This document shows, piece by piece, positions 12,559 to 61,224 of a DNA stretch of 64,000 bases; the first letter of the stretch is position 1; every line of letters starts with the position of its first letter. Position numbers and translations under genes: made by a program. The notes below the pieces were generated by a model. It was not told the origin of the DNA. It saw nothing but the letters and a program-made list of their open reading frames with translations, and did no database searches. The stretch comes from Microbacterium hominis (GTDB lineage: Bacteria; Actinomycetota; Actinomycetes; Actinomycetales; Microbacteriaceae): positions 2,790,001 through 2,854,000 of the forward strand of contig NZ_CP054038.1 of assembly GCF_013282805.1 (NCBI RefSeq), in the 5' to 3' direction.

Positions 12559-12574
12559 GAGAGGAACGGTCTCG

Positions 12575-12612: not shown

Positions 12613-12620
12613 ACGAGAGA

Positions 12621-15185: not shown

Positions 15186-15186
15186 G

Positions 15187-15211: not shown

Positions 15212-15350
15212 CGTCGCGCAACCCCTGGGAGGAATTTGGGTGGCGTGTTTACAAAACCGTTACATTGCATCCCCCACGGCCGCATTCCCTGGCGCGCACA
15301 CGCGTCCCTTACCATAGGGAGGACGTAGATCGCGATCGGGGGGTGATGGC

Positions 15351-45561: not shown

Positions 45562-45615
45562 GCCGCGCCGCCTCTGCGCCGCCGCTGCTCGTCGCCCACT
45601 CAACCGTCGTCCACC

Positions 45616-45665
45616 GCTCCGCTGTCGCAATCCGCTCGCGCAGGCGCCAACTGCGACAGCGGAGC
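45616..45665. repeat. CCGCTGTCGCAAT-type palindromic repeat, copy A
   Basis: GCTCCGCTGTCGCA (45616-45629) and TGCGACAGCGGAGC (45652-45665) form a perfect 14-bp stem, 22-base loop; a GGAGCAGC repeat tail follows. Related copies at 49462, 61050 and 61152. Confidence 0.85.
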
Positions 45666-45730
45666 AGCGGAGCAGCGGAGCAGCGGAGGGTGCGAGTGCG
45701 GGCCCTCCCCGGGCTCGGGCGAGAGAGTGT

Positions 45731-45762
45731 GGACACCATACCGCCTGGTCGGTATGGTGTCC
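45731..45762 (+). promoter_or_regulatory. Promoter with TetR-type operator, site 1 of 3
   Basis: The 18-bp core ATACCGCCTGGTCGGTAT (45738-45755) lies inside a wider palindrome with 13-bp arms GGACACCATACCG (45731-45743) and CGGTATGGTGTCC (45750-45762). TGGACA (45730-45735) and TATGGT (45753-45758), 17 bp apart, look like -35 and -10, so a bound repressor would cover the promoter of the alcohol dehydrogenase operon. The core read on the other strand matches sites 2 and 3. Confidence 0.75.
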
Positions 45763-46953: not shown

Positions 46954-47703
46954 ATGACCCGCACCGCCATCGTCACCGGCGCCGCGCGCGGCATCGGCGC
47001 CGCCGTCGCCCAGCGCCTGGCCGCCGACGGCCACGCCGTCGGCGTGATCGACCTCGATGAAGCCGCCTGCGCCGACACGGTCGCCGCCATCGCCGACGCC
47101 GGCGGGCGCGCCCTCGCGGTCGGAGCCGACGTCGCCGACAGCGCCGCGGTCGCCGGCGCCGTGAGCCGTGTCGCCGACGAGCTGGGCGCCCCGACCATCC
47201 TGGTGAACAACGCGGGCATCATCCGCGACAACCTGCTGTTCAAGATGACCGAGGACGACTGGGATGCCGTGCTCAGCGTGCACCTGCGCGGCGCGTTCCT
47301 GATGAGCCGGGAGGTGCAGAAGCATCAGGTCGAGGCCGGGTGGGGGCGCATCGTGAACCTGTCGTCGACCTCCGCCCTCGGCAACCGCGGGCAGGCGAAC
47401 TACGCCGCCGCCAAGGCCGGCATGCAGGGGTTCACGAAGACCCTGGCGATCGAGCTCGGACGATACGGCGTGACCGCGAACGCCATCGCGCCGGGGTTCA
47501 TCGTCACCGACATGACGCGTGCCACCGCCGCGCGCATCGGCGTCGAGTTCGAGCAGTTCGTCGAGTTCAACGCCAAGGAGATCCCGGTCGGCCGCCCCGG
47601 TCACCCGGGCGACATCGCGGCGGCGGCCGCGTTCTTCTGCTCCGCGGAGGCCGGGTTCGTCTCGGGCCAGGTGCTCTACGTCGCCGGCGGGCCGCGCGCA
47701 TGA
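46954..47703 (+). CDS. FabG-like 3-oxoacyl reductase / short-chain dehydrogenase
   Basis: 249-residue SDR. Cofactor loop TGAARGIGAAVA, NNAG motif (LVNNAGIIRDNLLFKMTEDDWD), catalytic Ser138-140 region with Tyr150 and Lys154 (YAAAK). Closest to FabG/PhaB-type reductases acting on 3-ketoacyl thioesters, here probably in acyl-CoA oxidation or 4-ketoacyl reduction. The ATG follows GGAAGGACTGAC. It overlaps the MaoC gene by an ATGA junction. Confidence 0.9.
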   Translation: MTRTAIVTGAARGIGAAVAQRLAADGHAVGVIDLDEAACADTVAAIADAGGRALAVGADVADSAAVAGAVSRVADELGAPTILVNNAGIIRDNLLFKMTEDDWDAVLSVHLRGAFLMSREVQKHQVEAGWGRIVNLSSTSALGNRGQANYAAAKAGMQGFTKTLAIELGRYGVTANAIAPGFIVTDMTRATAARIGVEFEQFVEFNAKEIPVGRPGHPGDIAAAAAFFCSAEAGFVSGQVLYVAGGPRA

Positions 47704-48155
47704 CGATCACCGTGACCAGCCCCGCGGCGCTGCCCGACGTGGTGGGGCGCACCGCCGTCGGCGAATGGTTCGAGGTCTCGCAGGAGCGCATCGGCCAGTT
47801 CGCCGACGCCACCGAGGACTGGCAGTGGATCCATCTGGATGCCGCGCGCGCGGCATCCGGTCCCTTCGGCGGCACCATCGCGCACGGCTACCTCACGCTG
47901 TCACTGCTCCCCCGGCTCGTGCAGGGTCTGCTCGACGTCGACGGCGCCGCCATGGTCGTCAACTACGGCCTGGACAAGGTGCGCTTCCTGCAGCCGGTGC
48001 CCAGCGGCGCGCGGGTGCGGGCGGTGACGGAGATCGCCGCCGTCGATCCCGGCCCCCAGGGCTATCGCGTGAGCTCGCGCACGTCGGTGGAGATCGAGGG
48101 CTCGGAGCGCCCCGCCCTCGTCGCCGAGACGATCGCGCTGTTCGTGCCCGCCTGA
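47700..48155 (+). CDS. MaoC-family (R)-specific enoyl-CoA hydratase
   Basis: 151-residue single hot-dog protein. The hydratase motif ATEDWQWIHLDAARAASGPFGGTIAHGYLTLSL carries the catalytic Asp and His of (R)-hydratases. It hydrates a trans-enoyl-CoA to the (R)-3-hydroxyacyl-CoA, which the upstream FabG-like enzyme could oxidise. Start overlaps the preceding stop (ATGA). Confidence 0.92.
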   Translation: MTITVTSPAALPDVVGRTAVGEWFEVSQERIGQFADATEDWQWIHLDAARAASGPFGGTIAHGYLTLSLLPRLVQGLLDVDGAAMVVNYGLDKVRFLQPVPSGARVRAVTEIAAVDPGPQGYRVSSRTSVEIEGSERPALVAETIALFVPA

Positions 48156-48224: not shown

Positions 48225-49439
48225 TCAGACCCGCTCGAGCACCAGCGCCATGCCCTGGCCGCCGCCCACGCACATCGTCTCCAGGCCGTAGCGACCGCCG
48301 GTGGCGGTGAGCCCGTTGATGAGCGTCGAGGTGATGCGCGCCCCGGTCATGCCGAAGGGGTGGCCGACCGCGATGGCCCCGCCGTGCACGTTGAGTCGCT
48401 CCTCGTCGATGCCGAGTGCGCGCGCCGAGGGGATGACCTGCGCGGCGAACGCCTCGTTGATCTCGACGAGGTCGATGTCGTCGATCGACAGCCCGGCCCG
48501 TGCGAGCGCGCGCCGGGAGGCCTCGACGGGGCCCAGCCCCATGATCTCGGGCGACAGGCCGCTCACCCCGGTCGACACGATCCGGGCGAGGGGCTCGAGG
48601 CCGAGTTCGTCGACGACGCGGTCCGAGACGACCACGACGGCGGCGGCCCCGTCGTTGAGCGGGCACGCGTTGCCGGCGGTCACGGTGCCGTCGGGGCGGA
48701 AGACGGGCTCCAGTCCCGCGAGCGCATCCACCGTGGTGCCCGGCCGCGGGCCGTCGTCGGCGGCGACCCGCGTGCCGTCGTCGAGGACCACCGGGGTGAT
48801 GTCGGCCGCCCAGAACCCGGAGGCGATGGCCGCCTCGGCGCGCTGCTGCGAGCGCGCCGCGAAGGCGTCCTGCTCGGCACGGGTCACGCCGTGCCGCTGC
48901 GCGACGTTCTCGGCCGTCTGGCCCATCGCGATGTATGGGTCGGGCAGGGCTCCGCTCTCGCGCGGATCCGTCCACCCCGGCGCGCCCGCGGCGGAGCGTT
49001 CCTGCGATCGGGCGAGCGCCTCTCCGAAGAGCGGGTTCACGGCCGACGGCAGATCCGAGGCTCCCGCGGCGTAGCGGCTCACCGATTCCACGCCCGCCGA
49101 GACGAACACGTCGCCCTCGCCGGCGGCGATCGCGTGGAACGCCATGCGCGTGGTCTGCAGCGACGAGGAGCAGTACCGGTTCACGGTGACGCCGGGCACG
49201 GCATCCCATCCGAGCTGCACGGCGACGATCCGCGCGAGGTTGAACCCCTGCTCGCCGGCGGGCTGACCGCACCCCAGCATGAGGTCGTCGATGCGCGCCG
49301 GATCCAGCCCCGGCACCTTCTCGACGGCGGCGGCGACCATGCGGGCGGCGAGGTCGTCGGGGCGGATGCCGACGAGAGAGCCCTTGCGGGCGCGGCCGAT
49401 CGGCGAGCGGGCGGTGGCGACGATGTACGCCTCGGGCAT
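48225..49439 (-). CDS. Acetyl-CoA C-acyltransferase (thiolase)
   Basis: 404-residue thiolase. Nucleophilic Cys90 in VNRYCSSSLQTTRMAF; GNACPLNDGAAAVVV; NEAFAAQVIPSARALG; HGGAIAVGHPFGMTGAR (catalytic His); CVGGGQGMALVLERV with the second Cys. Cleaves 3-ketoacyl-CoA in beta-oxidation. It follows the acyl-CoA dehydrogenase gene by 162 bp, which hold a dispersed repeat and a G-rich tract, so expression may be partly separate from it. Confidence 0.95.
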   Translation of the reverse strand: MPEAYIVATARSPIGRARKGSLVGIRPDDLAARMVAAAVEKVPGLDPARIDDLMLGCGQPAGEQGFNLARIVAVQLGWDAVPGVTVNRYCSSSLQTTRMAFHAIAAGEGDVFVSAGVESVSRYAAGASDLPSAVNPLFGEALARSQERSAAGAPGWTDPRESGALPDPYIAMGQTAENVAQRHGVTRAEQDAFAARSQQRAEAAIASGFWAADITPVVLDDGTRVAADDGPRPGTTVDALAGLEPVFRPDGTVTAGNACPLNDGAAAVVVVSDRVVDELGLEPLARIVSTGVSGLSPEIMGLGPVEASRRALARAGLSIDDIDLVEINEAFAAQVIPSARALGIDEERLNVHGGAIAVGHPFGMTGARITSTLINGLTATGGRYGLETMCVGGGQGMALVLERV

Positions 49440-49461
49440 GACGTCCTCCTTGACGTGGTCT

Positions 49462-49517
49462 GCTGCTCCGCTGTCGCGTTCGGCGCGACAGGCGACCGAT
49501 TGCGACAGCGGAGCAGC
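49462..49517. repeat. CCGCTGTCGCAAT-type palindromic repeat, copy B
   Basis: GCTGCTCCGCTGTCGC (49462-49477) pairs perfectly with GCGACAGCGGAGCAGC (49502-49517): 16-bp stem, 24-base loop, including ATTGCGACAGCGG as in copy D. Confidence 0.85.
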
Positions 49518-49519
49518 GA

Positions 49520-49590
49520 GGGATGGGTGCGGGGCGGGGGCGGTGGGGGGTGGGGGCGGGTGGGATGGGTGCGGGGCGGGTGGGGTGGGT
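49520..49590 (+). repeat. G-run tract with quadruplex potential
   Basis: About 70 bases with at least a dozen runs of three to six G separated by one to three bases on the plus strand, in the spacer of a minus-strand operon. Satisfies the G3+N1-7 quadruplex rule many times over. The transcript would carry the C-rich strand. Confidence 0.75.
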
Positions 49591-49601: not shown

Positions 49602-50870
49602 TCAGACGAACGCGGCGATGCCGGTGATCGCGCGGCCGACGATGAGGGAGTTCATCTCGAATGTGCCCTCGAAGGTGTAGACGGCCTCGGCGTCGGCGAA
49701 GTAGCGCGCGACGCTGGAGCCGGCGGGGAGGTCGGCGTCGAGCTGGTCCTGACTGCCGAGCTGGATGCCGTTGCCTCCCGTGATCTCGCGGCAGAGTGCG
49801 ACGGTCTCGCGCATGCGAGCGCTGACGAAGGCCTTCGCCATCGCCGAGTGGTGGTCGCGCTGGATCCCCTCGTCCTGCATCTGCGAGACGCGCACGCACA
49901 GGGCGATGGATGCGGTGATGTTCGAGAGGGCGGTCGCGAGCTTCTGCTGCACGAGCTGATACGCCGCGATCGGCTTGCCGAACTGCACGCGCGCTTTCGC
50001 GTAGGCCAGCGCCGCGTCGTACGCGCCGACGGCCACCCCGAGCGCCTGCCAGGCGACGTCGGCGCGCGTGAGGCGCAGCACGACGGCGACGTCGCGGAAG
50101 CCGTCGATGTGCGGCAGCCGATCGCTCTCGGGCACCACGAGCCCGTCCATCACGATGTCGGCGTTCTCGACGGCCCGCAGCGATTGCTTGCGCTCGATCT
50201 TCGTGGCCGAGAACCCGACCGCGGGCGTGCGCACGAGGAAGCCTTTGACCTGGTCATCGGCGACGTCGCGCGCCCAGATCACCACGAGGTCGGCGAACGC
50301 CCCGTTCCCGATCCACCGCTTGGCGCCGTTGAGCACCCACTCGTGGGTGCCGTCGGCGCGGGTGCGGCGCTCGGCGGTGGTCTCGAGGCCGCGGGCGGTG
50401 TCGGAGCCGTGGCCGGGCTCGGTGAGCCCGAACGCGGCGACCAGCTCGCCGCGGGCGAGGCGCGGCAGCCAGTGCGCCTTCTGCTCGGCCGATCCGCCGA
50501 CGGCGATCGAGGTCATCGCGAGGCCCGAGTGCACGCCGATGAAGGTGGCCGTCGAGGGGTCGCAGCGCGAGATCTCGAGGGCCACCCAGCCGCGGAACAC
50601 GTTCGAGTTCTCGAACTGCCGGGTCTCCGGGAACGCGTTGCCGTAGAGACCCAGCTCCGCGATGCGGGGAACGAGGTGCCGCGGGCTCTCGGCGCGCTCC
50701 CAGTGGTCGTCGGCGAACGGCCGCACCTCGGTGTCGAGGAAGTGCCGGATCTCGCGCAGCGCGCACTGCTCGCGCTCGGTGAGCAGGCTCTGGAACGCGT
50801 AGAAGTCGGCCTCCAGGAGGTCCGCGGGCAGAGTGCTCGGCGCGGGGGCGGTGGGGAGGGTGAACGTCAT
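49602..50870 (-). CDS. Acyl-CoA dehydrogenase, glutaryl-CoA dehydrogenase-like
   Basis: 422-residue flavoprotein. FAD/substrate motifs GELVAAFGLTEPGHGSDTARG, WVLNGAKRWIGNGAFADLVVIWAR, and the C-terminal YTFEGTFEMNSLIVGRAITGIAAFV, where EGT holds the catalytic Glu position of the glutaryl-CoA dehydrogenase group. It oxidises an acyl-CoA to the enoyl-CoA, passing electrons to ETF. Divergent from a QsdR-like regulator gene whose spacer carries inverted repeats; likely controlled by that regulator. Confidence 0.92.
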   Translation of the reverse strand: MTFTLPTAPAPSTLPADLLEADFYAFQSLLTEREQCALREIRHFLDTEVRPFADDHWERAESPRHLVPRIAELGLYGNAFPETRQFENSNVFRGWVALEISRCDPSTATFIGVHSGLAMTSIAVGGSAEQKAHWLPRLARGELVAAFGLTEPGHGSDTARGLETTAERRTRADGTHEWVLNGAKRWIGNGAFADLVVIWARDVADDQVKGFLVRTPAVGFSATKIERKQSLRAVENADIVMDGLVVPESDRLPHIDGFRDVAVVLRLTRADVAWQALGVAVGAYDAALAYAKARVQFGKPIAAYQLVQQKLATALSNITASIALCVRVSQMQDEGIQRDHHSAMAKAFVSARMRETVALCREITGGNGIQLGSQDQLDADLPAGSSVARYFADAEAVYTFEGTFEMNSLIVGRAITGIAAFV

Positions 50871-50983: not shown

Positions 50984-51628
50984 ATGAGCACGCTCACCGC
51001 CGCTGCCACCATCGCCTCCGTCGGGGTGGAGGCCGCGCCGTCGTGGCTCTCGGCGCGGCTCGCCGACGGCACCCACGCCGACGCGCAGCGCGCGTTCGAC
51101 GCCGCGCGCGCGCTGTTCATCGACGGCCGCCGCATCGACATGAGCGCCCTCGCCGCCTCCCTCGGCGTCGACCGCACGTCGCTGTTCCGCTGGGTCGGCA
51201 ATCGCGACGCCCTCCTCAGCGAGGTGCTGTGGTCGCTGGCCATCCCCACCCTCGTGAGCGCCGAGCACGCGTGCGACGGCCGTGCCGGCGGCGAGCGCAT
51301 CGCCGGGATCCTCACCCACTTCGTCGACGACCTGAACACGGCGGAGTACTTCCGCTCATTCCTGCGCCGGGAGCCCGCCCGCGCGCTGCGCCTGCTCACC
51401 ACGAAGGAGAGCCCGATCCAGCGTCGCTACGTCGCCACGGCCGACTGGCTCGTGCGCCGCGATCTCGGCGCCGAACCCCTGGGCGGGGCCATCGACCCGG
51501 CCGGCCTCGCGTATCTGCTCGTGCGGGTGTCGGAATCGTTCACCTACGCCGACCTCATCTCGGGCGACACGCCGAGCGCGGCACGGGCCCGCACCGCGTT
51601 CCGCCTGCTGCTGCGGGTGGACGGCTGA
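50984..51628 (+). CDS. TetR-superfamily regulator, QsdR-like
   Basis: 214-residue regulator. The DNA-binding part (FDAARALFIDGRRIDMSALAASLGVDRTSLFRWVGNRDALLSEVLWSL) and the C-terminal YVATADWLVRRDLGAEPLGGAIDPAGLAYLLVRVSESFTYADLISGD segment resemble QsdR-type regulators. Probably represses itself and the divergent acyl-CoA dehydrogenase-thiolase operon until an acyl-CoA binds. The message looks leaderless. Its stop overlaps the thioesterase start (TGATG). Confidence 0.85.
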   Translation: MSTLTAAATIASVGVEAAPSWLSARLADGTHADAQRAFDAARALFIDGRRIDMSALAASLGVDRTSLFRWVGNRDALLSEVLWSLAIPTLVSAEHACDGRAGGERIAGILTHFVDDLNTAEYFRSFLRREPARALRLLTTKESPIQRRYVATADWLVRRDLGAEPLGGAIDPAGLAYLLVRVSESFTYADLISGDTPSAARARTAFRLLLRVDG

Positions 51629-52071
51629 TGGCCGCCCATCTCGCGCGCCGCCCCTTCGCGACGCGCTGGAACGACAACGACCAGTACGGGCACGTCAACA
51701 ACACGGTCTACTACGCCGCGATGGACACCGCGGTGAACGCCTTCATGATCGCCGAGGGCGGGCTCGACCCGCAGGGAGAGGCGATCGCCCTGTGCGCGGC
51801 GTCGTCGTGCGAGTTCCACGCGTCCGCGTCGTTCCCCGAGCCGCTCGAGGTCGGCATCGGCGTCGAGCGCGCAGGCCGCACCAGCATCACGTGGGCCCTC
51901 GAGATCCTGCGACCCGGCGACGACGCGCCGATCGCGACGGGCCGCTTCGTGCACGTCTTCGTGGATGCCGCAACCCGGCGCCCGACGCCGATTCCGGCAT
52001 CCATCCGCGCCGCCCTGGGGTCGGCCGCGGCGCCGGCCGAGCAGCCCGCCGCCCGACCCGCCGAGGACTGA
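51628..52071 (+). CDS. Acyl-CoA thioesterase, 4HBT hot-dog family
   Basis: 147-residue thioesterase; RRPFATRWNDNDQYGHVNNTVYYAAMDTAVNAFM is the 4-hydroxybenzoyl-CoA-thioesterase-type signature with the catalytic Asp in NDNDQYGHVNN. It hydrolyses an acyl-CoA, perhaps to recycle CoA. The last 20 residues are a Pro/Ala tail. Coupled to the QsdR-like regulator through a TGATG overlap. Confidence 0.9.
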   Translation: MAAHLARRPFATRWNDNDQYGHVNNTVYYAAMDTAVNAFMIAEGGLDPQGEAIALCAASSCEFHASASFPEPLEVGIGVERAGRTSITWALEILRPGDDAPIATGRFVHVFVDAATRRPTPIPASIRAALGSAAAPAEQPAARPAED

Positions 52072-52102: not shown

Positions 52103-52130
52103 TTGCGACAAACCGACCAGGCGGTATGCT
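52103..52130 (+). promoter_or_regulatory. Promoter with TetR-type operator, site 2 of 3
   Basis: AAACCGACCAGGCGGTAT at 52110-52127 lies between TTGCGA (52103-52108) and TATGCT (52125-52130), a -35/-10 pair 16 bp apart. It precedes the kinase-dehydrogenase-ligase operon by about 45 bp. Differs from site 1 (other strand) in one base. Confidence 0.75.
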
Positions 52131-52171: not shown

Positions 52172-53206
52172 ATGACCGATGTTCCAGGCCTGGATGCCGC
52201 GGGGCTGACCGCGTGGCTGACGCGCGCACACCCCTCGCTCGCCGACCGGCCGCTCACGGCATCCGTCATCGCCGGTGGCCGCAGCAACCTCACGTACGCC
52301 GTCGACGGAGCCACGGTCCCCCTGGTCGTGCGGCGTCCGCCGCTCGGGCACGTTCTCTCCAGCGCCCACGACATGCGCCGCGAGCACCGCGTGATCTCCG
52401 CCCTCGCACCCACGCCCGTGCCGGTGCCGGTCGCGATCGACGTCGTCGACGACGAGGCCGCCGCCGAGGTCACCGGGACCGTGTTCTTCGTGATGGAGCG
52501 GGCGCCGGGCAGCGTGCTGGCCCACGCCTCCCAGAACGCCGCGTACTCCCCCGCAGCGCTGCGCCGGCTCAGCCTGCAGCTCGTCCGCCACCTGGCCGAC
52601 CTCCACGCGGTGGATCCGGATGCCGTGGGCCTGGCCGACTTCGGCCGTCCCGACGGCTACCTCACCCGGCAGCTGTCGACGTGGCGGCGGCAGCTCGACG
52701 CGTCGCGGTCCCGCGAGACGCCCACCCTCGACGCCCTCGCCGGCACGCTCGACGCCGACATCCCCGTCTCGGCCCGCACCGCGATCGTGCACGGCGACTA
52801 CCGTCTCGACAACGCGCTGGTCTCCGGCACCCCCGACGACCCGCTGATCTCCGCGATCCTCGACTGGGAGATGGCGACGCTCGGCGACCCGCTCGTGGAT
52901 CTCGGCATCTTCGCCCTGTACTGGGACATCGCCGCGCTCGGCGAGGCGGGCGGCGCCGTGCCGAGCGCGGTCGACCCGGATGCCGGCTACCCGTCGTTCG
53001 ACGAGCTCGTCGACGCCTACGCGCAGCGCGCCGGGATCTCGGTGCCCGACCTCCGCTGGTACCGCGCGTTCGCCGCGTTCAAGCTGGCCGTCATCCTCGA
53101 GGGCATCCACTACCGCTTCCGCGCCGGAGACACCGTCGGGGCGGGATTCGACCGGATGGGCGCCCTCGTCGAACCGCTCGCCCGACGAGGAATGGAGGTG
53201 CGCTGA
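52172..53206 (+). CDS. APH-fold kinase, candidate 4-hydroxyacyl-CoA kinase
   Basis: 344-residue aminoglycoside-phosphotransferase-fold protein. ATP-binding lobe: SVIAGGRSNLTYAVDGATVPLVVRRPPLGH; catalytic loop IVHGDYRLDNALV; metal-binding ILDWEMATLGDPLVDLG. It is not a resistance enzyme by context: its stop overlaps an acyl-CoA dehydrogenase start and a ligase follows. The same pairing occurs in animal ACAD10/ACAD11 and in the Pseudomonas levulinate genes lvaA/lvaC, where the kinase phosphorylates a 4-hydroxyacyl-CoA and the dehydrogenase-like partner removes the phosphate. That role is inferred. No LvaB-like small partner gene is seen nearby. Confidence 0.82.
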   Translation: MTDVPGLDAAGLTAWLTRAHPSLADRPLTASVIAGGRSNLTYAVDGATVPLVVRRPPLGHVLSSAHDMRREHRVISALAPTPVPVPVAIDVVDDEAAAEVTGTVFFVMERAPGSVLAHASQNAAYSPAALRRLSLQLVRHLADLHAVDPDAVGLADFGRPDGYLTRQLSTWRRQLDASRSRETPTLDALAGTLDADIPVSARTAIVHGDYRLDNALVSGTPDDPLISAILDWEMATLGDPLVDLGIFALYWDIAALGEAGGAVPSAVDPDAGYPSFDELVDAYAQRAGISVPDLRWYRAFAAFKLAVILEGIHYRFRAGDTVGAGFDRMGALVEPLARRGMEVR

Positions 53207-54420
53207 TGGACTTCGCACACGATGAGACCACGCGCGAGCTGAGCGAGCGTCTGCGCGCCTTCGTGCACGAGCACGCGATCCCCGCCGAGCAGGTGCTCGA
53301 CGCACAGCTGGCCGCCGAGCCCGACCGGTGGGGCGGGTTCCCCGTGGTCGCCGAGCTGCAGCAGCGCGCCCGCGCCGAGGGACTGTGGAACCTGTTCCTT
53401 CCCGGCGACCCCGCCGAGACGGGCGCGGCGGGGCTCACCAATCTGCAGTACGCGCCGCTGGCCGAGATCACCGGCTGGAGCCCGCGCCTGGCGCCGCCCG
53501 CCGTCAACTGCGCCGCCCCCGACACCGGGAACATGGAGGTGCTGAACGAGTTCGGCACCCCTGCCCAGAAGGAACGCTGGCTCGAGCCGCTGCTGCGGGC
53601 CGAGATCCGCTCGTCGTTCTGCATGACCGAGCCCGACGTCGCATCCTCAGATGCCACCAACATCGGCACCCGCATCCGCCGCGAGGGCGACGAGTACGTC
53701 ATCACCGGACGCAAGTGGTGGTCCACCGGCGCGATGAACCCCGACGCCGCGATCTTCATCGTGATGGGCAAGACCGACCCCGATGCCGAGCGCCACCGCC
53801 AGCAGTCGATGATCCTCGTGCCGCGCGACGCTCCGGGCGTCCGCGTGATCCGGCCGCTGACGGTCTTCGGCTACGACGACCGCGACCACGGCGGCCACGC
53901 CGAGATCGCCTTCGACGACGTGCGGGTGCCGGCGTCGCACCTGATCGCCGGCGAGGGCGACGGCTTCGCGATCGCGCAGGCGCGCCTCGGCCCCGGCCGC
54001 ATCCACCACTGCATGCGCGCCCTCGGCATGGGCGAGCGCGCGCTGTCGCTCGTGCGGGAGCGCGCATCGGCGCGCCACGCCTTCGGGCGCACCCTGGCCG
54101 AGCAGGGCGTCGTGCGCGAATGGGCGGCCGAGGCCCGCATCCAGCTCGAAGCCCTGCGCCTGCTGGTGCTGAAGACGGCATGGCTCATGGACACCGTCGG
54201 CAACCGCCGCGCGATGACCGAGATCCAGGCGATCAAGATCGCCGTCCCGCGCGCGGTGCAGCAGATCATCGACCGCGCGATCCAGGTGCACGGCGGCGCC
54301 GGTGTCTCCGGTGATACGCCCCTGGCCGAGCTGTACGCCGGCATCCGGTCGCTGCGCATCGCCGACGGGCCCGACGAGGTCCACCTCTCCAGCCTCGGAC
54401 GCGCCGAACTGCGCGTCTGA
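53206..54420 (+). CDS. Acyl-CoA dehydrogenase paired with the APH-fold kinase
   Basis: 404-residue acyl-CoA dehydrogenase-fold protein. FAD motifs SSFCMTEPDVASSDATNIGTRI, YVITGRKWWSTGAMNPDAAIFIVMGKTD; C-terminal QIIDRAIQVHGGAGVSGDTPLAELYAGIRSLRIADGPDEVH. The RKWWSTGAM and pairing with the kinase are typical of the ACAD10/11 and LvaC group, which acts on 4-phospho-acyl-CoA to make an enoyl-CoA. Start overlaps the kinase stop (TGATG), so the two proteins are probably made in equal amounts. Confidence 0.9.
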   Translation: MDFAHDETTRELSERLRAFVHEHAIPAEQVLDAQLAAEPDRWGGFPVVAELQQRARAEGLWNLFLPGDPAETGAAGLTNLQYAPLAEITGWSPRLAPPAVNCAAPDTGNMEVLNEFGTPAQKERWLEPLLRAEIRSSFCMTEPDVASSDATNIGTRIRREGDEYVITGRKWWSTGAMNPDAAIFIVMGKTDPDAERHRQQSMILVPRDAPGVRVIRPLTVFGYDDRDHGGHAEIAFDDVRVPASHLIAGEGDGFAIAQARLGPGRIHHCMRALGMGERALSLVRERASARHAFGRTLAEQGVVREWAAEARIQLEALRLLVLKTAWLMDTVGNRRAMTEIQAIKIAVPRAVQQIIDRAIQVHGGAGVSGDTPLAELYAGIRSLRIADGPDEVHLSSLGRAELRV

Positions 54421-54483
54421 CCCGCGCCGCGTCCCGCGGCCTCCCCGCGCCGCATCCCGCGGCATCCCGAGTCGAAGGAGACC

Positions 54484-56067
54484 ATGATGCCCCACCCGCA
54501 CGACCCCGCCATCGACGGCGGCGGCTTCGCGACGCTGTCGGTCGCGAGCATCCTCGCCGAATCCGCCCGCCGACACGGCGACCGCCCCGCGCTGCACTTC
54601 GCCGGCACGACGACCACGTACCGCGAACTGTGGGACCAGGCCCGCGCCTACGCGGGCGCGCTCGCGGCGCGCGGCATCGGGCGCGGCGACCGCGTGGCGA
54701 TGCTGGTGCCGAACGTCCCCGACTTCGCCCGCGTCTACTACGCGGCCCTCGCTCTCGGCGCCGTCGTCGTGCCCGTGCACCTGCTGCTGAAGTCCGACGA
54801 GATCGCCTACGTGCTGCGCGACAGCGGCGCCGACCTCGTCGTCGTGGCCGCTCCCCTGCTGGCCGAGGCCGCCCCCGCCGCCGCGGAGGCCGGCGTGGCG
54901 CTCGTGACCGTGCTCGTGCCCGCCGACGCGGGCGCCGGCCTGCCGCGCCTGGAGGCCGAGGCGGCGGACGCGGTGCCGATCGCGCGCCATGCGCCGACCC
55001 ACCCGATCGATCCGGCGACGATCCTCTACACCAGCGGCACGACCGGCACCCCCAAGGGCGCCGTCGGCACGCACCTGTCGATCGTCGAGCAGGTGCACTG
55101 CAACCTCATCGACGGGTTCGACCTGCGCGCCGACGACGTCGTGTTCGGCGGACTGCCGCTGTTCCACACGTTCGGCCAGACCGCCGTCATGAACATCGCG
55201 TTCCGGGTCGGCGCCGCCGTGATCCTCCTGCCGCGGTTCGACGCCGATGACGCGCTCGCGCTCATGGTGGCCCACCGGGCGACCGTGTTCACCGCCGTGC
55301 CCACCATGTACGTGGGCATGCTCGAGGCCGCGCGCCGCAGCGCCGACCGTCCGCCGCTGCGCTACGCGGTCTCGGGCGGCGCGGCGCTGCCGGTGGCCGT
55401 GCTCGAGGCGTTCCGCGACGCGTTCGGCGCCGATGTGCACGAGGGCTACGGTCTCACCGAGACCGCCCCCACCGTCTCATCCAACCCCCTGTTCGAGCCG
55501 ATCCGGCCCGGCACCGTCGGGCGCCCGCTGTGGGGCGTCGAGGTGGCGATCGCCGACCCCGAGATCGACGACCGGGTCGTGCTGCTCGAGGACGCGCACG
55601 CGCTCGGCGAGATCGTCGTGCGCGGCCACAACCTCTTCAAGGGGTACCTCGGGCGTCCCGAGGCATCGGCCGATGCCGTGGTCGACGAGTGGTTCCGCAC
55701 CGGCGACCTCGGCACCTTCGCCGACGGCATCCTCTCCATCGTCGACCGCAAGAAGGACATGATCGTCCGGGCGGGCTACAACGTGTACCCCACCGAAGTC
55801 GAGGCGACGATGGCGCGCCACCCCGGCATCGCCGTCGCGGCCGTGTTCGGCGTCGACGACCCGGTGAAGGGGCAGGAGGTGCACGCCGCCGTCGTCGCGC
55901 ACGAGGGCGTCTCGCTCGACCCCGACGAGGTGATCGCCTTCACCCGCGACCGCATCGCGGCCTACAAATACCCGCGGGTCGTGCACGTCATGCCCGCTCT
56001 GCCCCTGGGCCCGAGCGGCAAGGTGCTCAAGCGCGCCCTGGTCGCGCAGCACACGCCGGTCGGCTGA
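54484..56067 (+). CDS. Acyl-CoA ligase (AMP-forming)
   Basis: 527-residue ANL-family ligase that activates a carboxylic acid with ATP and CoA. Motifs: ILYTSGTTGTPKGAVG (P-loop), GYGLTETAP, EWFRTGDLGTFADG, IVDRKKDMIVRAGYNVYPTEVE (hinge), and GPSGKVLKRAL with the catalytic Lys. Probably the entry step for the acid handled by the kinase-dehydrogenase pair, corresponding to LvaE in the levulinate route. AAGGAG lies upstream; the second ATG (54487) has better spacing and may be the true start. A UUCG-capped terminator follows. Confidence 0.92.
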   Translation: MMPHPHDPAIDGGGFATLSVASILAESARRHGDRPALHFAGTTTTYRELWDQARAYAGALAARGIGRGDRVAMLVPNVPDFARVYYAALALGAVVVPVHLLLKSDEIAYVLRDSGADLVVVAAPLLAEAAPAAAEAGVALVTVLVPADAGAGLPRLEAEAADAVPIARHAPTHPIDPATILYTSGTTGTPKGAVGTHLSIVEQVHCNLIDGFDLRADDVVFGGLPLFHTFGQTAVMNIAFRVGAAVILLPRFDADDALALMVAHRATVFTAVPTMYVGMLEAARRSADRPPLRYAVSGGAALPVAVLEAFRDAFGADVHEGYGLTETAPTVSSNPLFEPIRPGTVGRPLWGVEVAIADPEIDDRVVLLEDAHALGEIVVRGHNLFKGYLGRPEASADAVVDEWFRTGDLGTFADGILSIVDRKKDMIVRAGYNVYPTEVEATMARHPGIAVAAVFGVDDPVKGQEVHAAVVAHEGVSLDPDEVIAFTRDRIAAYKYPRVVHVMPALPLGPSGKVLKRALVAQHTPVG

Positions 56068-56159: not shown

Positions 56160-57437
56160 TCAGGACGCGGGGACCGCCTCGTTCTCGAGGGCGACCGGCT
56201 CGGCATCCACGGCCACGACCTCGCCGCCCTCCACCGCGTAGGTGGGTCCGACGTAGTCCTGCACGCCGCCGTCGACCGCGGTGATCCCCACCCCGGTGTA
56301 GGCGGCGTGACTGTCGGTCGAGAACGACAGGGGCAGGATGCCGCTGCCGGCCAGATCACCGCCGGTGACGGCATCCATCAGCGACTGCCGCGTCGGGTTC
56401 TCGCCGGCCGCCTCGAGCGCCTCGGCGAACAGGTACGCGACGCTCATGCCGTAGATGGTGTTGCCGTCGAAGGGCGCGCCGTCGTTGTACTCGTCGTTGA
56501 TCTGCTGGAACAGGCTCACCCAGTCGCTGTCGCCGCCCAGCGCCGGCAGGTAGTTGGTGCCGACCAGCCCCTGCAGCAGCGCCGGCCCGACCTCCTCGCC
56601 GAGGAAGCCCACCAGCGTCGGGTAGTCGGCGCCCGACGACGACGAGAACCACATCGGGAACCAGCCGAGCTGCGCCGCGGTGCCGAGCGCCAGCGCGGTG
56701 AATCCGTTGATGGTCGCGAGGAGCGTGATCTCGCACCCGGCCGCCTGCAACGCGCCGATCTGGGCGGTGACGTCCTGGTTGGAGACCGAGTAGCGCTCGA
56801 CGTGGGTGAGACCACCGGCGCCGAGGGCGAGCTCGGCGCCCTCGATCATCTCGTCGCCGAAGTCGTCGTCCTGCCCGAGGAGGCAGACGGCCTTGCCGGG
56901 ATGCTCATCGGCCGCGTACTGGGCGAGGGCCGCGCCCTCCACGACATAGTCGGCATTGAACCCGAAGGTGAACGGGTACTTCTCTGGCTCGTTCCAGTTC
57001 GTCGACCCCGATGCCACGAACAGGTCGGGGACCTCGTTCTGGTTGAGGTAGTCGAGCACGGCGGTGTGGGTGGGCGTGCCCAGGCCGTTGAGCACGGCGA
57101 AGACCTCGTCCTCCTGCACGAGCTCGCGCACGACGGTCTGGGTCGTCGCAGGGTTGTAGCCGTCGTCTTTGACGATGTACTCGATCGTGCGGCCGTGCAC
57201 GCCGCCCTGGTCGTTCAGGTACGCGAAGTACGCCGTCGCCGCCGCGGAGATCGACGAGTAGCCGGCGGCGGCCGGACCGGTCAGCGGAGTGTGCGTGCCG
57301 ATCGTCACGGTGTCGTCGGTGACACCGGGCGCGTCGGCGACCTCTCCTGTCGGGGTGCTGCACGCGGCGAGCGAGACGAGCAGGGCGGATGCGCCGAGCA
57401 TCGCCGCGGCGCGACGTGCGGGGGTGTGCTGTGACAT
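56160..57437 (-). CDS. Branched-chain amino acid-type substrate-binding lipoprotein (LivK family)
   Basis: 425-residue binding protein. The N-terminus MSQHTPARRAAAMLGASALL ends in lipobox LAAC, so the protein is membrane-anchored outside the cell. Body signatures: VTIGTHTPLTGPAAAGYSSISAAATAYFAYLNDQGGVHGRTIEYIVKDDGYNPATTQTVVRELV, and ALLGQDDDFGDEM-type motif. LivK-family proteins also bind aliphatic and aromatic acids; here the regulon suggests a carboxylate. The start at 57437 has AGAGGTGACC; an upstream MKEVT start is less well spaced. Last gene of the transporter operon. Confidence 0.9.
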   Translation of the reverse strand: MSQHTPARRAAAMLGASALLVSLAACSTPTGEVADAPGVTDDTVTIGTHTPLTGPAAAGYSSISAAATAYFAYLNDQGGVHGRTIEYIVKDDGYNPATTQTVVRELVQEDEVFAVLNGLGTPTHTAVLDYLNQNEVPDLFVASGSTNWNEPEKYPFTFGFNADYVVEGAALAQYAADEHPGKAVCLLGQDDDFGDEMIEGAELALGAGGLTHVERYSVSNQDVTAQIGALQAAGCEITLLATINGFTALALGTAAQLGWFPMWFSSSSGADYPTLVGFLGEEVGPALLQGLVGTNYLPALGGDSDWVSLFQQINDEYNDGAPFDGNTIYGMSVAYLFAEALEAAGENPTRQSLMDAVTGGDLAGSGILPLSFSTDSHAAYTGVGITAVDGGVQDYVGPTYAVEGGEVVAVDAEPVALENEAVPAS

Positions 57438-57448
57438 GGTCACCTCTT

Positions 57449-58576
57449 TCATGGGTGGGTGTGTTGCAGGACCGGTGGGCTCGAGGCAGGGGTTCCGGAT
57501 CTGCCGCCCGGCGGCTCCGGCTCGGACGCCGGGGGGAGGGATGCCGGGGCGGCAGGCGTGCGCCGTCGCCGGCGGATGCTCGCGAGGCCCCCCGGCCACG
57601 CGAGCATCACGGCGATGAGCAGCGCGCCGAACACGAGCACCGGCACGTTGCCGGAGAGGCGCTGCTCGACCTCGGCGGGCAGGCCGAGCGCGTCGATCGC
57701 CGTGGTGATCGCCCAGGGCAGCAGCACGATGAGGGCGGATCCGACGGCGGCTCCGCCGATGCTGCCGAGTCCGCCGACGACGACCGCGACCACCAGCAGG
57801 AGCGAGAACGCGAGGGTGTAGGCGCCGGGGCTCACCGACTGGGTCACGAAGCACAGCACCGCGCCGCCGGCGCCGGCCGCGGCCGAACTCGCCGTGAACG
57901 CGGTGACCTTGACGCGGCCGGCCCGCACACCCGACAGGCGCGCGGCGGTCTCGTCGTCGCGCACCGCCCGCATGCGCAGCCCGAGCGGACCGCGGGCGAG
58001 CACGCAGAGCGTCGTGACCGTGACGCCGGCGACCGCCACGGCCACCCACGCCTGCCACTGCTCGAGCGCGATGAGGGTGCGCAGCGCCCCGGGCACGCCG
58101 TCGAACGGGATCTGCAGCCCCTGATCGCCGCGGAAGACGCCCGAGAAGACGGCGGTCACGGCGGGGACCGCGATGACGAGGGCCAGCGTCACGCCGGCCA
58201 GGTACGGCCCGCGCAGGCGCGCGGCGGCCAGGCCCAGCATCCATCCCATGGCGCCGGCGACGGCGACCGCGACCGCGAGCCCGATGGCGAAGCGCGGCAC
58301 GCCCTCGACCCCCGCGGCGGTGAGGGCGTTGGCGGCGAGCGCGTAGCCGTAGCCGCCGGTCGCCATGAGTGCCGCGTGCCCGAGCGAGAGCTGCCCGGAG
58401 TGGCCGATCAGCAGCGTGAGCCCGGCCGCGGCGCAGAAGGTGGCCGCGATGGTGGCGAGCTGGAAGTTGCGGAACGGATCGAGGAGGAACGTGCCGCCGA
58501 CGGCGAGCACGGTGAGCACGGCGCCGAGCACGATCGTGCGCGGGGCGCCGGTGAGCGAGGGCAGGATCCGGGTCAT
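57449..58576 (-). CDS. ABC transporter permease, LivM family
   Basis: 375-residue permease, about nine helices. Family signature TLLIGHSGQLSLGHAALMATGGYGYAL and the cytoplasmic loop LGLRMRAVRDDETAARLSGVRAGRVKVTAFTASSAAAGAGGAV; C-terminal basic/Pro-rich tail (IRRRRRTPAAPASLPPASEP) unusually long. Overlaps the LivH gene by an ATGA junction. Confidence 0.92.
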   Translation of the reverse strand: MTRILPSLTGAPRTIVLGAVLTVLAVGGTFLLDPFRNFQLATIAATFCAAAGLTLLIGHSGQLSLGHAALMATGGYGYALAANALTAAGVEGVPRFAIGLAVAVAVAGAMGWMLGLAAARLRGPYLAGVTLALVIAVPAVTAVFSGVFRGDQGLQIPFDGVPGALRTLIALEQWQAWVAVAVAGVTVTTLCVLARGPLGLRMRAVRDDETAARLSGVRAGRVKVTAFTASSAAAGAGGAVLCFVTQSVSPGAYTLAFSLLLVVAVVVGGLGSIGGAAVGSALIVLLPWAITTAIDALGLPAEVEQRLSGNVPVLVFGALLIAVMLAWPGGLASIRRRRRTPAAPASLPPASEPEPPGGRSGTPASSPPVLQHTHP

Positions 58577-59451
58577 GCGCTGCGCGCCTCCCTCATCGAG
58601 AAGATGCCGTTCGGGCGCACGAGCAGCACCGCCACCAGCAGCACGAGCACGGCGATCGGCGCCACCGTGGCCCCCAGGTATCCCGTGACGAGCGTCATCG
58701 CGACGCCAACGATCAGCCCGCCGAGCATCGCCCCGGCCGGGGAGTCGAGTCCTCCCACGACGGCGACCGTGAACGCGTAGACGAACAGCACGTCGGTCGA
58801 GTGGGGATTGAGCCCCAGCTCGGTCGGCACCAGGAGGATCGCCGCCAGCGCCGCGACGGCTGCGGAGAGCATCCACCCGATCGTGACCATGCGGGGCACC
58901 CGCACGCCGAGCAGGCGTGACACCTCGGGCGCGAACGCCGCCGCCCGCAGCTGCAGCCCCAGCGAGGTGCGCGTGAACAGCAGGGCCAGCCCGCCCATGA
59001 CCGCGAGCGCGATGACGAGCACGAAGAGGTCGTACGGGCTCAGCAGCGGCACCCCGCCGCCCACGATCGGACTGTCGTCGAACGGGGTCGACATCGGGCG
59101 GAACTGCGCGCCGAACAGGATGCCGAGGAGGGACTGCAGCACCATCACGAGCCCGATCGCCACGATCACCCCGGCCAGCGGTTGGGAATGCGGGGCGAAG
59201 CGCATGATGCCGCGCTCGATTCCCGCCCCGATCGCGGCGCCCGCGAGGATGCCGGCCGCGAGGCCCGCCACGTACGACCCCGTGAGGCCCGACACCGCGA
59301 AGGCGACGTAGGTGGCGACGAGGGCCATCGCCCCCTGGGCGAAGTTGATGATGCGGGCGGCGCGCCAGATGAGCACGAGCGAGAGCGCGAACAGCGCGAA
59401 GATCGCGCCGCGGGCGAGTCCCGTCGCGAGGAGGAAGAGCAGTCGATCCAT
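58573..59451 (-). CDS. ABC transporter permease, LivH family
   Basis: 292-residue permease. GLARGAIFALFALSLVLIWRAARIINFAQGAMALVATYVAFAV is the LivH start signature (GALYALVALGLTLIYGVLRxINFAHG pattern). The cytoplasmic loop RTSLGLQLRAAAFAPEVSRLLGVRVPRMVTIGWMLSAAVAALA contacts the ATPases. Start overlaps the LivF stop by TGATG. Confidence 0.92.
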   Translation of the reverse strand: MDRLLFLLATGLARGAIFALFALSLVLIWRAARIINFAQGAMALVATYVAFAVSGLTGSYVAGLAAGILAGAAIGAGIERGIMRFAPHSQPLAGVIVAIGLVMVLQSLLGILFGAQFRPMSTPFDDSPIVGGGVPLLSPYDLFVLVIALAVMGGLALLFTRTSLGLQLRAAAFAPEVSRLLGVRVPRMVTIGWMLSAAVAALAAILLVPTELGLNPHSTDVLFVYAFTVAVVGGLDSPAGAMLGGLIVGVAMTLVTGYLGATVAPIAVLVLLVAVLLVRPNGIFSMREARSA

Positions 59452-60191
59452 CAGAACCCCAGGTAGGCGTGGCGGAGGGCGTCGTCGGTGGCCAGCTGCG
59501 CGGCCGGTGCGACCGCGACGACCCGGCCGAGGTCGAGCACGACGCCGCGATCGGCGATGGAGAGGGCGCTGGTGACGTTCTGCTCGGCCAGCAGCACCGT
59601 CACGCCGCGCGCCGCGGCGACATCGCGGAGCGTTCCCATCAGCTGGCCGACGACGATCGGCGCGAGGCCGAGAGAGGGCTCGTCGAGCGCGAGCACGCGC
59701 GGGCGGGCGATGAGCGCGCGGCCGAGGGCGAGCATCTGCCGCTCGCCCCCCGACAGCTGGTGGCCGGCGGCCCCCCGGCGACGGGCGAGGGGCTCGAACA
59801 TCTCGTAGACCTCGCCGATCGCCCGGTCGCGCGCGGCGCCGCGGTGGCTCCACAGCGCGCCGAGGCGCAGGTTCTCCTCGACCGTCAGCTCGGCGACCAC
59901 GCTGCGCCCGTCGGGCACGAGCGCGATGCCCTGCCGCGCCCGCGCCTCGGTCGGCACGCCCGCGAGGTCGGCGCCGTCGAGGAGGATCGACCCGGATGCC
60001 GCGGGCACGAGCCCCGCGAGGGTGCGCAGCAAGGTGGTCTTGCCGGCCCCGTTCGCCCCGAGCAGGGCGACGATCTCCCCGGGCTCGAGGGCGAAGTCGA
60101 CCTCGTGGAGCACCGGCGCGCCGCCGTAGCCGACGGTCACCGCGGTGAACGCGAGCGCGGCGCCGGTGGCCGTCGCCGGCCGCGCGCTCAT
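59451..60191 (-). CDS. ABC transporter ATP-binding protein, LivF family
   Basis: 246-residue ATPase. Walker A ALLGANGAGKTTLLRTLAG; signature QLSGGERQMLALGRALI; Walker B VLALDEPSLGLAP; H-loop region VLLAEQNVTSALSIADRG. Fully canonical, in contrast to its LivG partner. Overlaps LivG by ATGA. Confidence 0.94.
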   Translation of the reverse strand: MSARPATATGAALAFTAVTVGYGGAPVLHEVDFALEPGEIVALLGANGAGKTTLLRTLAGLVPAASGSILLDGADLAGVPTEARARQGIALVPDGRSVVAELTVEENLRLGALWSHRGAARDRAIGEVYEMFEPLARRRGAAGHQLSGGERQMLALGRALIARPRVLALDEPSLGLAPIVVGQLMGTLRDVAAARGVTVLLAEQNVTSALSIADRGVVLDLGRVVAVAPAAQLATDDALRHAYLGF

Positions 60192-60937
60192 GAGGCGGCC
60201 TTCACGCCGAGGTAGGCCTCCTCGACGCGCGGGTCGACGCGCACCTCGTCGGGGGTGCCCCGCGCGATCACGCGGCCGAAGTCGAGCACGACGATGCGGT
60301 CGGCAAGACCCATCACGAAATCGACGTGGTGCTCCACGAGCAGCACCGCGCACCCCTCGGCGGCGACGGCGCGGATGAGCCGCCCGAGCGCCGCGATGTC
60401 GTCGTGGCCGAGCCCGCCGGCGGGCTCGTCGAGCAGGAGCAGCGTCGGACGGATCACGAGCGCCCGCGCCAGCGCGACGCGCTTGCGGTCGGGGTAGGGC
60501 AGCGCCGCCGCCGGCGCGTCGGCGAACGCGGCGAGATCGAGTTCGGCGAGCTGGCGCGCCACTCGGGCGTCGGCATCGCCGTCGCCCGCGACCGGCACCC
60601 GCACGTTCTCGCGCACCGTCATGCCGGCGAAGAGCCCGAGCCCCTGCAGCGTGCGGGCGACGCCGCGGGAGGTGAGCCCGGCGGCCCGCCGCGGCGCGGG
60701 CATCCCGTCGATCTCGACGGCCCCCCGGCGGCGGACGAGACCGCAGATCGCGTTGAAGACGCTCGTCTTGCCGGCGCCGTTCGGGCCGATCAGCGCGACG
60801 ACCTCGCCGGGCGCGACGGCGAAGCTGACGTCGTCGACGGCCGTCAGGCCGCCGAAGGTCACAGTCAGCCCGCGGCAGGCGAGCCGCGGCGGCGTGGCTG
60901 CTTCGGCCCTCTCGGCCGGATCTGTCGTCTCGTTCAT
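60188..60937 (-). CDS. ABC transporter ATP-binding protein, LivG family
   Basis: 249-residue ATPase with Walker A ALIGPNGAGKTSVFNAICG, Walker B LLLLDEPAGGLGHDD and H-loop LLVEHHVDFVM. The signature reads LPYPDRKRVALARAL where LivG proteins usually have LxYGxQRRLEIARAL, so the glycine-containing core is changed. The ATG at 60937 is preferred to a GTG six bases before it because AGAGGT lies at proper spacing. First gene of a five-gene operon (livGFHMK order); TetR-type operator site 3 lies 40 bp upstream. Confidence 0.9.
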   Translation of the reverse strand: MNETTDPAERAEAATPPRLACRGLTVTFGGLTAVDDVSFAVAPGEVVALIGPNGAGKTSVFNAICGLVRRRGAVEIDGMPAPRRAAGLTSRGVARTLQGLGLFAGMTVRENVRVPVAGDGDADARVARQLAELDLAAFADAPAAALPYPDRKRVALARALVIRPTLLLLDEPAGGLGHDDIAALGRLIRAVAAEGCAVLLVEHHVDFVMGLADRIVVLDFGRVIARGTPDEVRVDPRVEEAYLGVKAAS

Positions 60938-60976: not shown

Positions 60977-60994
60977 AAACCGACCAGCCGGTAT
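60977..60994 (-). promoter_or_regulatory. TetR-type operator, site 3 of 3
   Basis: AAACCGACCAGCCGGTAT, one base different from site 2, 40 bp before the start of the transporter operon. Links the transporter to the alcohol dehydrogenase and kinase operons. Confidence 0.75.
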
Positions 60995-61049
60995 GTCTCT
61001 GTTGCAGGAGTCTCAGCGCCGCCCGTCCTCCCCCCGTTCCGCTGCCGTT

Positions 61050-61093
61050 CCGCTGTCGCAATGCGCACGTCTGGGCGCCGATTGCGACCGCGG
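61050..61093. repeat. CCGCTGTCGCAAT-type palindromic repeat, copy C
   Basis: CCGCTGTCGCAAT (61050-61062) and ATTGCGACCGCGG (61081-61093): 13-bp stem with one mismatch; the loop GCGCACGTCTGGGCGCCG is nearly identical to that of copy D. Confidence 0.85.
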
Positions 61094-61151
61094 AGCAGCG
61101 GACCTCCCCGTTCCGGGGCGGACTACCCCGATCCGCAGTGGTCCTCTCCGT

Positions 61152-61197
61152 TCCGCTGTCGCAATGCGCGCGTCTGGGCGCCGATTGCGACAGCGGA
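61152..61197. repeat. CCGCTGTCGCAAT-type palindromic repeat, copy D
   Basis: TCCGCTGTCGCAAT (61152-61165) and ATTGCGACAGCGGA (61184-61197): perfect 14-bp stem, 18-base loop conserved with copy C 100 bp away. Confidence 0.88.
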
Positions 61198-61224
61198 GCG
61201 GCGGAGGCAGGGCCGCGCAGCGAC

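Follow-up and report, generated by a model that had tools for sequence, protein, structure and literature searches.

A kinase gene, an acyl-CoA dehydrogenase (ACAD) gene and an acyl-CoA ligase gene lie side by side in a 64,000-nucleotide stretch of the Microbacterium hominis genome (contig NZ_CP054038.1, positions 2,790,001 to 2,854,000), referred to here as the window. An initial annotation, made from the sequence alone, described these genes as a trio resembling a levulinate/4-hydroxy acid pathway. Their reading frames, all on the + strand, have the coordinates it gave: an APH-fold kinase of 344 amino acids (52172–53206; Pfam APH, 156 bits), a complete ACAD of 404 amino acids (53206–54420; three Pfam ACAD domains), and an AMP-binding, FadD-like ligase of 526 amino acids (54487–56067; Pfam AMP-binding, 315 bits, plus the C-terminal domain). 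The best NCBIfam match of the ligase, PRK06187, scores 428 bits, under the cut-off of 476. The kinase and ACAD genes do overlap by one base, as had been proposed: the kinase stop codon TGA (53204–53206) and the ACAD start codon ATG (53206–53208) share base 53206 in a TGATG junction. The ligase start, at 54484 or 54487, is 63–66 bases past the ACAD stop.

The word “trio” understates the unit, which has ~19 genes. To the left, the + strand encodes a zinc alcohol dehydrogenase (ADH1; 45804–46952), a FabG-like short-chain dehydrogenase/reductase (SDR1; 46954–47703) that is likely a 3-hydroxyacyl-CoA dehydrogenase, and a MaoC-type enoyl-CoA hydratase (47700–48155; Pfam MaoC). They are followed on the − strand by a thiolase (acetyl-CoA C-acetyltransferase, 48225–49439; NF005890, 714 bits, cut-off 580) and a conventional ACAD (ACADb; 49602–50870), which has Glu in the catalytic column and no HCMR motif. 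Between these and the kinase, on the + strand, are the genes for a TetR-type regulator (TetR 1; 50984–51628; Pfam TetR_C_36, 133 bits) and a hotdog-fold thioesterase of 147 amino acids (51628–52071; Pfam 4HBT_2, 71.7 bits, cut-off 25.5), the latter missing from the initial annotation. To the right, everything is on the − strand. A LIV-type ATP-binding cassette (ABC) transporter (56160–60937) consists of a solute-binding protein (56160–57437; Pfam Peripla_BP_6), LivM-type (57449–58576) and LivH-type (58573–59451) permeases, and LivF-type (59451–60191) and LivG-type (60188–60937) ATPases, with the LivG gene opening the operon. Further along are a second short-chain dehydrogenase/reductase (SDR2; 61314–62090), a quinone oxidoreductase/enoyl reductase-like protein (ADH2; 62077–63090) and a second TetR-type regulator (TETR2; 63087–63668; Pfam TetR_N and TetR_C_24). 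Thus, the hydratase, thiolase, SDRs and transporter that had been named as neighbors are all present.

What type of enzyme pair do the kinase and ACAD form? ACAD11 removes the hydroxyl group from certain fatty acids after attaching a phosphate to it. ACAD11 is also the closest solved relative of the window ACAD: in the PDB, ACAD11 entries come out on top (8v3u, 458 bits; 8v3v; 2wbi), followed by 4hr3 at 411 bits, and scores then drop to 142 bits for other ACADs. By our own reading, 8v3u and 8v3v are the mouse ACAD11 of PMC12440821; the PDB entry names no organism. For the kinase, the top PDB matches are 9o56 and 3dxp together with the kinase domain of ACAD11. According to the available part of PMC12440821, ACAD11 residues R626, H634 and R637 (in the HCMR region) and D753 are needed, and bind the 4-phosphate or catalyze the reaction; the kinase residues it names are the catalytic D220 and N225 and the CoA-contacting R86 and R176. 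The window ACAD has R260 (for R626), R265 (for R631), H268-C269-M270-R271 (the HCMR motif) and D387 (for D753), and the window kinase has D209, N214, R70 and R166. Conservation was assessed in 80 loci, the best of 590 confirmed matches in a contig search with the window ACAD. For the ACAD, 81 sequences were compared, the window included, and none of the 81 deviates at any of the seven positions checked. In the kinase, D209, N214 and R166 are kept in 74 of 74 sequences (73 loci plus the window) and R70 in 73, the other having a gap. ACADb, encoded 2.3 kb away, serves as a control and has V, V, Q and E at the columns of R260, H268, R271 and D387.

Sequence relationships agree with this assignment. 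For comparison, LvaA, LvaC, LvaD and LvaE were taken from the Pseudomonas plasmid pPA272, not from KT2440. The window ACAD is 54.6% identical to ACAD11, versus 33.8% for LvaC; identities to the ACAD11 kinase domain are 31.1% for the window kinase, 25.2% for LvaA and 43.9% for an Azoarcus kinase. Trees were built from 38 kinases and 41 ACADs, with a warning of long branches from the tree tool. In the kinase tree, the window protein is split from LvaA at 100/98, and in two ACAD trees it is split from LvaC-like rows at 98/96 and 100/100; in the kinase tree and the 98/96 ACAD tree, ACAD11 and an Azoarcus pair are on the window side. Phylogeny was the check that the initial annotation had suggested, and it places both proteins on the ACAD10/11 side, away from LvaA and LvaC of pPA272. 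By sequence, the pair is of the ACAD10/11 type, with a putative 4-hydroxyacyl-CoA kinase and a putatively phosphate-eliminating ACAD, which supports the annotation's reading of the two enzymes. The two genes also travel together, beyond what chance would give. A kinase homolog starts ≤1.6 kb from the ACAD in 73 of the 80 loci, and in a survey of 198 genomes of the genus, 29 of the 30 with the ACAD (E up to 1e-100) also have the kinase (E up to 1e-60); the remaining genome has only an ACAD fragment. In Aeromicrobium flavum (L088), a kinase-less ACAD11-type ACAD lies directly 3′ of a MaoC-like gene.

Is the island an lva operon? In pPA272, the genes stand in lva order and one is annotated as lvaB. 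Identities to the window proteins are 29.7% for LvaA and the kinase, 36.7% for LvaC and the ACAD, 30.7% for LvaE and the ligase, and 35.7% for LvaD and SDR2, the last two being likeness at the superfamily level. LvaB of pPA272 matches DUF6285 (85 bits), a family with matches in 3 of 248 genomes of the order and none anywhere in the window's genome. Hence, the earlier remark that no LvaB-like partner is visible holds genome-wide. In one relative of the same order (L021, 1450–2865, − strand), a single protein carries an APH kinase with DUF6285 at its C-terminal end (110.7 and 49.9 bits), a natural LvaA-LvaB-like fusion. The missing LvaB is no obstacle to the function proposed here, because other systems do without it in the parts of the sources available. 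Specifically, the kinase part of ACAD10 works, with substrate made by LvaE, and a Burkholderia kinase can replace it (PMC11342911, in whose main text, as far as available, LvaB occurs 0 times); a Pseudomonas citronellolis levulinate cluster lacks lvaB (PMC6692424). The initial annotation's guess of a self-sufficient kinase fits these cases. Where the window kinase has the CoA-contacting arginines R70 and R166, LvaA of pPA272 has Gln and Leu, a difference that may be the reason that the LvaA lineage needs LvaB. The available part of PMC11342911 prints KT2440 LvaC as 62% identical to ACAD10 and 56% to ACAD11, the latter in conflict with the 33.8% for pPA272 LvaC, and LvaA as 29% versus the 25.2% computed with pPA272. 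The pPA272 operon may not be representative of KT2440, and given this conflict, the distance of the window ACAD from “LvaC” is a distance from pPA272 and its relatives. As judged from the translated genes, the island is not an lva operon: it differs in LvaB, in the symporter and in the type of regulator.

The island is conserved as a unit. Seventeen window proteins were compared with every locus, and a gene was scored at ≥50% identity (45% for MaoC, 40% for the kinase) over 60% of its length. On this count, 30 of the 80 loci have 12 or more of the 17 genes, and 12 loci have all 17. These 30 block loci come from 11 genera: Microbacterium, Demequina, Agromyces, Isoptericola, Kineosporia, Krasilnikoviella, Cellulosimicrobium, Nesterenkonia, Cellulomonas, Promicromonospora and Glycomyces. 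The block comprises the dehydrogenases, MaoC, thiolase, second ACAD, TetR, thioesterase (found in 33 of the 80 loci), kinase, ACAD, ligase and LIV-type transporter; in Promicromonospora and Glycomyces, its sub-blocks are rearranged with their content mostly kept. Among the 18 incomplete block loci, seven lack ADH2, whose place is at or beyond the end of the available DNA, six lack ADH1, and six lack TetR 1 (Promicromonospora and Glycomyces). Single cases lack the ligase, the thioesterase, one permease, or SDR1 together with MaoC. The transporter and the ACAD are also associated across the genus: of the 19 genomes among the 198 that encode the binding protein, 17 encode the ACAD as well, on the same contig at a distance of 1.7–4.1 kb (Fisher p ~1e-14, uncorrected for kinship). 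Genes inserted between sub-blocks, judged by eye from translations in 13 gaps of 10 loci, look unrelated and differ by locus, e.g., a glycosidase, a major facilitator superfamily (MFS) transporter and an alpha/beta hydrolase in L041. They point to no substrate and were rejected as substrate hints. Some loci (L054, L065, L089 and others) have reduced islands in which the kinase-ACAD pair stands with FabG, MaoC or the ligase only, and these could reveal dispensable genes. The island as a unit looks new, although its parts are known; no account of it was found in the literature searched, whose scope left out most subscription journals, and this is no proof of novelty.

How might the island be regulated? 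A TetR-type palindrome, ATACCGnCTGGTCGGT, has three exact copies in the window, one before each of three operons: at 45738–45753 (+ strand, ATACCGCCTGGTCGGT) before ADH1-SDR1-MaoC, at 52112–52127 (− strand) before kinase-ACAD-ligase, and at 60979–60994 (− strand, ATACCGGCTGGTCGGT) before the transporter operon. With ≤3 mismatches, the window has 5 matches, against a mean of 1.6 in 100 shuffles, 2 of which reach 5. Across the 3.9-Mb genome, the 14-base core occurs exactly five times: three times in the island and twice elsewhere, inside reading frames. The block loci were scanned within 350 bases upstream of each gene, at ≤1 mismatch unless stated. All 30 loci have the palindrome ahead of the first gene of the transporter operon (200 shuffled motifs: mean 0.04, maximum 2). 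For ADH1, the count is 7 of 24, rising to 19 of 24 at ≤2 mismatches, and for SDR1, ACADb and TetR 1, it is 3 of 30, 4 of 30 and 1 of 24, respectively. None was found upstream of the ligase (29 loci), binding protein, SDR2 or thiolase (30 each). If an internal ATG is the start of SDR3, a gene beyond the window, a copy with one mismatch lies just upstream of it, heading SDR3-TETR2-ADH2-SDR2. Which regulator would act on these sites? TETR2 is present in 22 of the 30 block loci, and the DNA available for the other 8 stops before or about its place. Outside the 30, six loci have TETR2 and all six have the palindrome (≤2 mismatches) within 300 bases before the kinase, while of five further TETR2-less loci inspected, four lack the pre-kinase palindrome and one (L065) has it. 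From this co-distribution, we infer the pairing of regulator and site, with TETR2 as the likelier of the two regulators. Separately, an inverted repeat (approximately CCGCTGTCGCA ... TGCGACAGCGGAGCAGCGGA) occurs in three intergenic stretches of the island, at ~45615–45700, 49455–49525 and 61030–61200, and looks like an interspersed palindromic repeat.

There are some hints to the substrate. The closest solved relative of the binding protein by sequence is 4n03, with 92.8 bits to the family profile and the next at 71; its PDB title is “Fatty acid ABC transporter substrate-binding protein.” For the predicted fold (pLDDT 78.6), VIA-align also puts 4n03 first, less than 1 Z unit from branched-chain amino acid-type proteins. 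The NCBIfam family nearest to SDR2 acts on a 4-hydroxy acid, at a score under the cut-off. One candidate source of substrate is the oleate hydratase route, in which 10-hydroxystearate gives 4-hydroxydodecanoyl-CoA; it was rejected, as the window's genome has no PF06100 match. Titles and abstracts of papers on fadE36/Rv3761c gave nothing on its function.

From the observed gene content, residues, block and palindrome, we infer the catalytic steps and the substrate class. We propose, with a probability of about 0.7, that this is a co-regulated island for taking up a 4-hydroxy or 4-oxo acid and channeling it into beta-oxidation by way of a 4-phosphoacyl-CoA. The LIV-type ABC transporter would import a carboxylic acid with a hydroxyl or keto group on carbon 4, and the ligase would join it to CoA as a thioester. 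If the acid is in a 4-keto form, it may be reduced beforehand by SDR2 or ADH1. The kinase, working without an LvaB subunit, would then phosphorylate the 4-hydroxyl, and the ACAD10/11-type ACAD, using FAD transiently, would eliminate phosphate, with a 2-enoyl-CoA as the product. The remaining steps of beta-oxidation could fall to MaoC, SDR1 and the thiolase, with ACADb serving further rounds on a saturated chain and the thioesterase freeing trapped CoA. A TetR repressor, most likely TETR2, would control the kinase, hydratase and transporter operons via the common palindrome.

Several observations weigh against this proposal. First, the 80 loci, being the best matches, are not a random sample. 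Second, 7 of them (L059, L062, L067, L088, L093, L098 and L100) show no kinase alongside the ACAD in the available stretch, so the ACAD may sometimes act apart. Third, 13 of the 30 ACAD genomes of the genus lack the binding protein at the cut-off used, and there are 2 reverse cases. The transporter is therefore not obligatory, since the ACAD and binding protein each occur alone. Fourth, for the kinase, 12 of 30 block loci have an upstream palindrome at ≤1 mismatch (24 of 30 at ≤2), a weaker result than for the transporter. Fifth, with ≤1 mismatch, the palindrome core occurs in 45 places in the genome, versus 17 for the backward pattern, so single-mismatch sites mean little on their own. Sixth, LIV-type binding proteins of near-equal fold by VIA-align hold amino acids or aromatic acids, and Foldseek ranks 4n03 fourth; hence, a fatty ligand is only a hint.

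Could the substrate be of another kind? The acid may be, for example, cyclic, terpenoid or branched, with 4-phosphorylation serving to remove a hydroxyl exposed during breakdown rather than one on the imported substrate. We regard this as unlikely. The oxidoreductases ADH1, SDR2, ADH2 and SDR3, together with ACADb, exceed the needs of a simple 4-hydroxy acid. The best NCBIfam match of SDR2 is trans-4-hydroxycyclohexanecarboxylate dehydrogenase, with 252 bits against a cut-off of 400, and aromatic acids are the ligands of several LIV-type binding proteins with a similar fold. However, no ring-cleaving enzyme, monooxygenase or lyase was recognized in the island or, by eye, in the 13 gaps examined in 10 loci.

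A more specific alternative, close to the initial annotation, is a levulinate/4-hydroxyvalerate pathway in which the ligase, SDR2, kinase and ACAD act as LvaE, LvaD, LvaA and LvaC. The set of reactions would be identical, SDR2 and the ligase have the likeness to LvaD and LvaE given above, and a levulinate cluster can lack lvaB, as in P. citronellolis (PMC6692424). Nonetheless, we consider this alternative improbable. The likeness of the ligase and SDR is at the superfamily level only, and a specific tie to levulinate is not supported: the transporter is of the ABC type and not LvaFG, and the regulators are TetR-type and not PrpR/LvaR-type, both differing in kind from those of the pPA272 operon. 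Levulinate as the sole explanation is further weakened by a second kinase/ACAD pair outside the window, at ~3,579–3,581 kb of the same genome (L141, 6501–9476). The second ACAD, in which the HCMR motif and the Asp are kept, shares 48.4% identity with pPA272 LvaC and 37.4% with the window ACAD; in the tree, it falls with LvaC (99/89). The accompanying kinase shares 46% identity with the window kinase and 28% with LvaA, and has both CoA-contacting arginines. Further along the same strand (L141, 2124–5753) are genes for an SDR, a GntR/FCD regulator, PrpD (864 bits, cut-off 950) and 2-methylcitrate synthase (595 bits, cut-off 479). The breakdown of levulinate yields propionyl-CoA. No propionyl-CoA genes were recognized in the island; since PrpD and methylcitrate synthase are encoded near the second pair, that pair appears to be the better levulinate candidate. 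The same combination of kinase, ACAD, PrpD and methylcitrate synthase is found together in another genome of the genus, G045 (L145). Two kinases at E 1e-60 occur in 3 of the 198 genomes: the window's genome, G045 and G100, in the last of which each kinase adjoins an ACAD of the window type. Finally, APH-fold enzymes are varied, and the kinase has weak NCBIfam matches to capreomycin and aminoglycoside phosphotransferases, but an unrelated substrate such as an antibiotic or amino alcohol, with the ACAD adjoining by chance, is nearly excluded by scores far under the cut-offs (33.2 versus 390 and 28.5 versus 205 bits), the adjacency to the ACAD in 73 of the 80 loci, the presence of the kinase in 29 of the 30 genomes with the ACAD, and the kept CoA-contacting arginines.

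What are the implications of an island that would import and degrade a 4-hydroxy or 4-oxo acid? A broader reading, which we offer tentatively, is that this strain runs two parallel 4-phosphoacyl-CoA modules of different evolutionary type, and that actinobacteria of at least 11 genera carry a dedicated TetR-controlled regulon leading from import to acetyl-CoA for a single class of 4-hydroxy or 4-oxo fatty acids. The island, with an ABC importer of its own, could then serve longer or other 4-hydroxy acids, and the LvaC-type pair near the methylcitrate-cycle genes five-carbon, propionyl-CoA-yielding acids such as levulinate. Two pair types in one genome offer a natural test of the differences between LvaC and ACAD10/11. 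In the annotated plasmid records compared, bacterial counterparts of ACAD10/11 are mostly named just phosphotransferase and acyl-CoA dehydrogenase family protein. Here, a conserved island links an ACAD10/11-type pair to genes for transport, CoA ligation, regulation and the whole of beta-oxidation, so that the substrate becomes testable by induction of a single operon. Such a system would also offer a bacterial model for the catabolism of 4-hydroxy acids, an ABC importer for them, and a sensor responding to these acids or to gamma-lactones.

How does the island compare with known systems? A Streptomyces plasmid (strain NBC_00388; L106, 8853–20039) has a kinase/ACAD11-type pair beside AfsA-like, KAS III and CoA-transferase genes, a set that resembles those of butyrolactone-like signal clusters, perhaps linking the pair to lactone turnover. 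The qsd gamma-lactone operon of Rhodococcus erythropolis is likewise a TetR-controlled system for lactone/acid catabolism with an acyl-CoA ligase, but the available parts of PMC6262395 and PMC3689677 name no kinase or ACAD. A QsdA-kind lactonase was considered for M. hominis and rejected, as its genome has no match to the phosphotriesterase family, PF02126; other lactonase families were outside this search. A plasmid cluster of Tsukamurella tyrosinosolvens (L105) is closer, having FabG, MaoC, kinase, an ACAD11-type ACAD (67% identical), ligase, thiolase and TetR; it differs in a phosphotriesterase-family gene and an MFS transporter nearby, with no LIV transporter in the stretch read. Its gene order (8531–16045) is FabG-MaoC-kinase-ACAD11-ACAD-ACAD-phosphotriesterase-ligase, and the phosphotriesterase might act as a lactonase that supplies the kinase with substrate. 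The levulinate cluster of P. citronellolis LA18T, found via levulinate-upregulated genes, resembles the island in having a kinase and ACAD without lvaB, but it also encodes a histidine phosphatase, its transporter is a symporter and its regulator is of the LvaR type (PMC6692424, available in part). The lva operon of pPA272 has a kinase, ACAD, SDR and acyl-CoA ligase in common with the island, and its LvaC also has the HCMR motif and catalytic Asp. In contrast, the island lacks LvaB, its kinase and ACAD are only 29.7% and 36.7% identical to LvaA and LvaC, and it has a LIV-type ABC transporter in place of a symporter and TetR-type regulators in place of a PrpR-like one. Mammalian ACAD10 and ACAD11 are likewise a kinase plus an ACAD, with 54.6% identity between ACAD11 and the window ACAD and the key residues of both parts kept (PMC12440821 and PMC11342911, each available in part). 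In M. hominis, by comparison, the two functions are on separate proteins from overlapping genes, the kinase is just 31.1% identical, and the pair is set within a block of genes for import and beta-oxidation.

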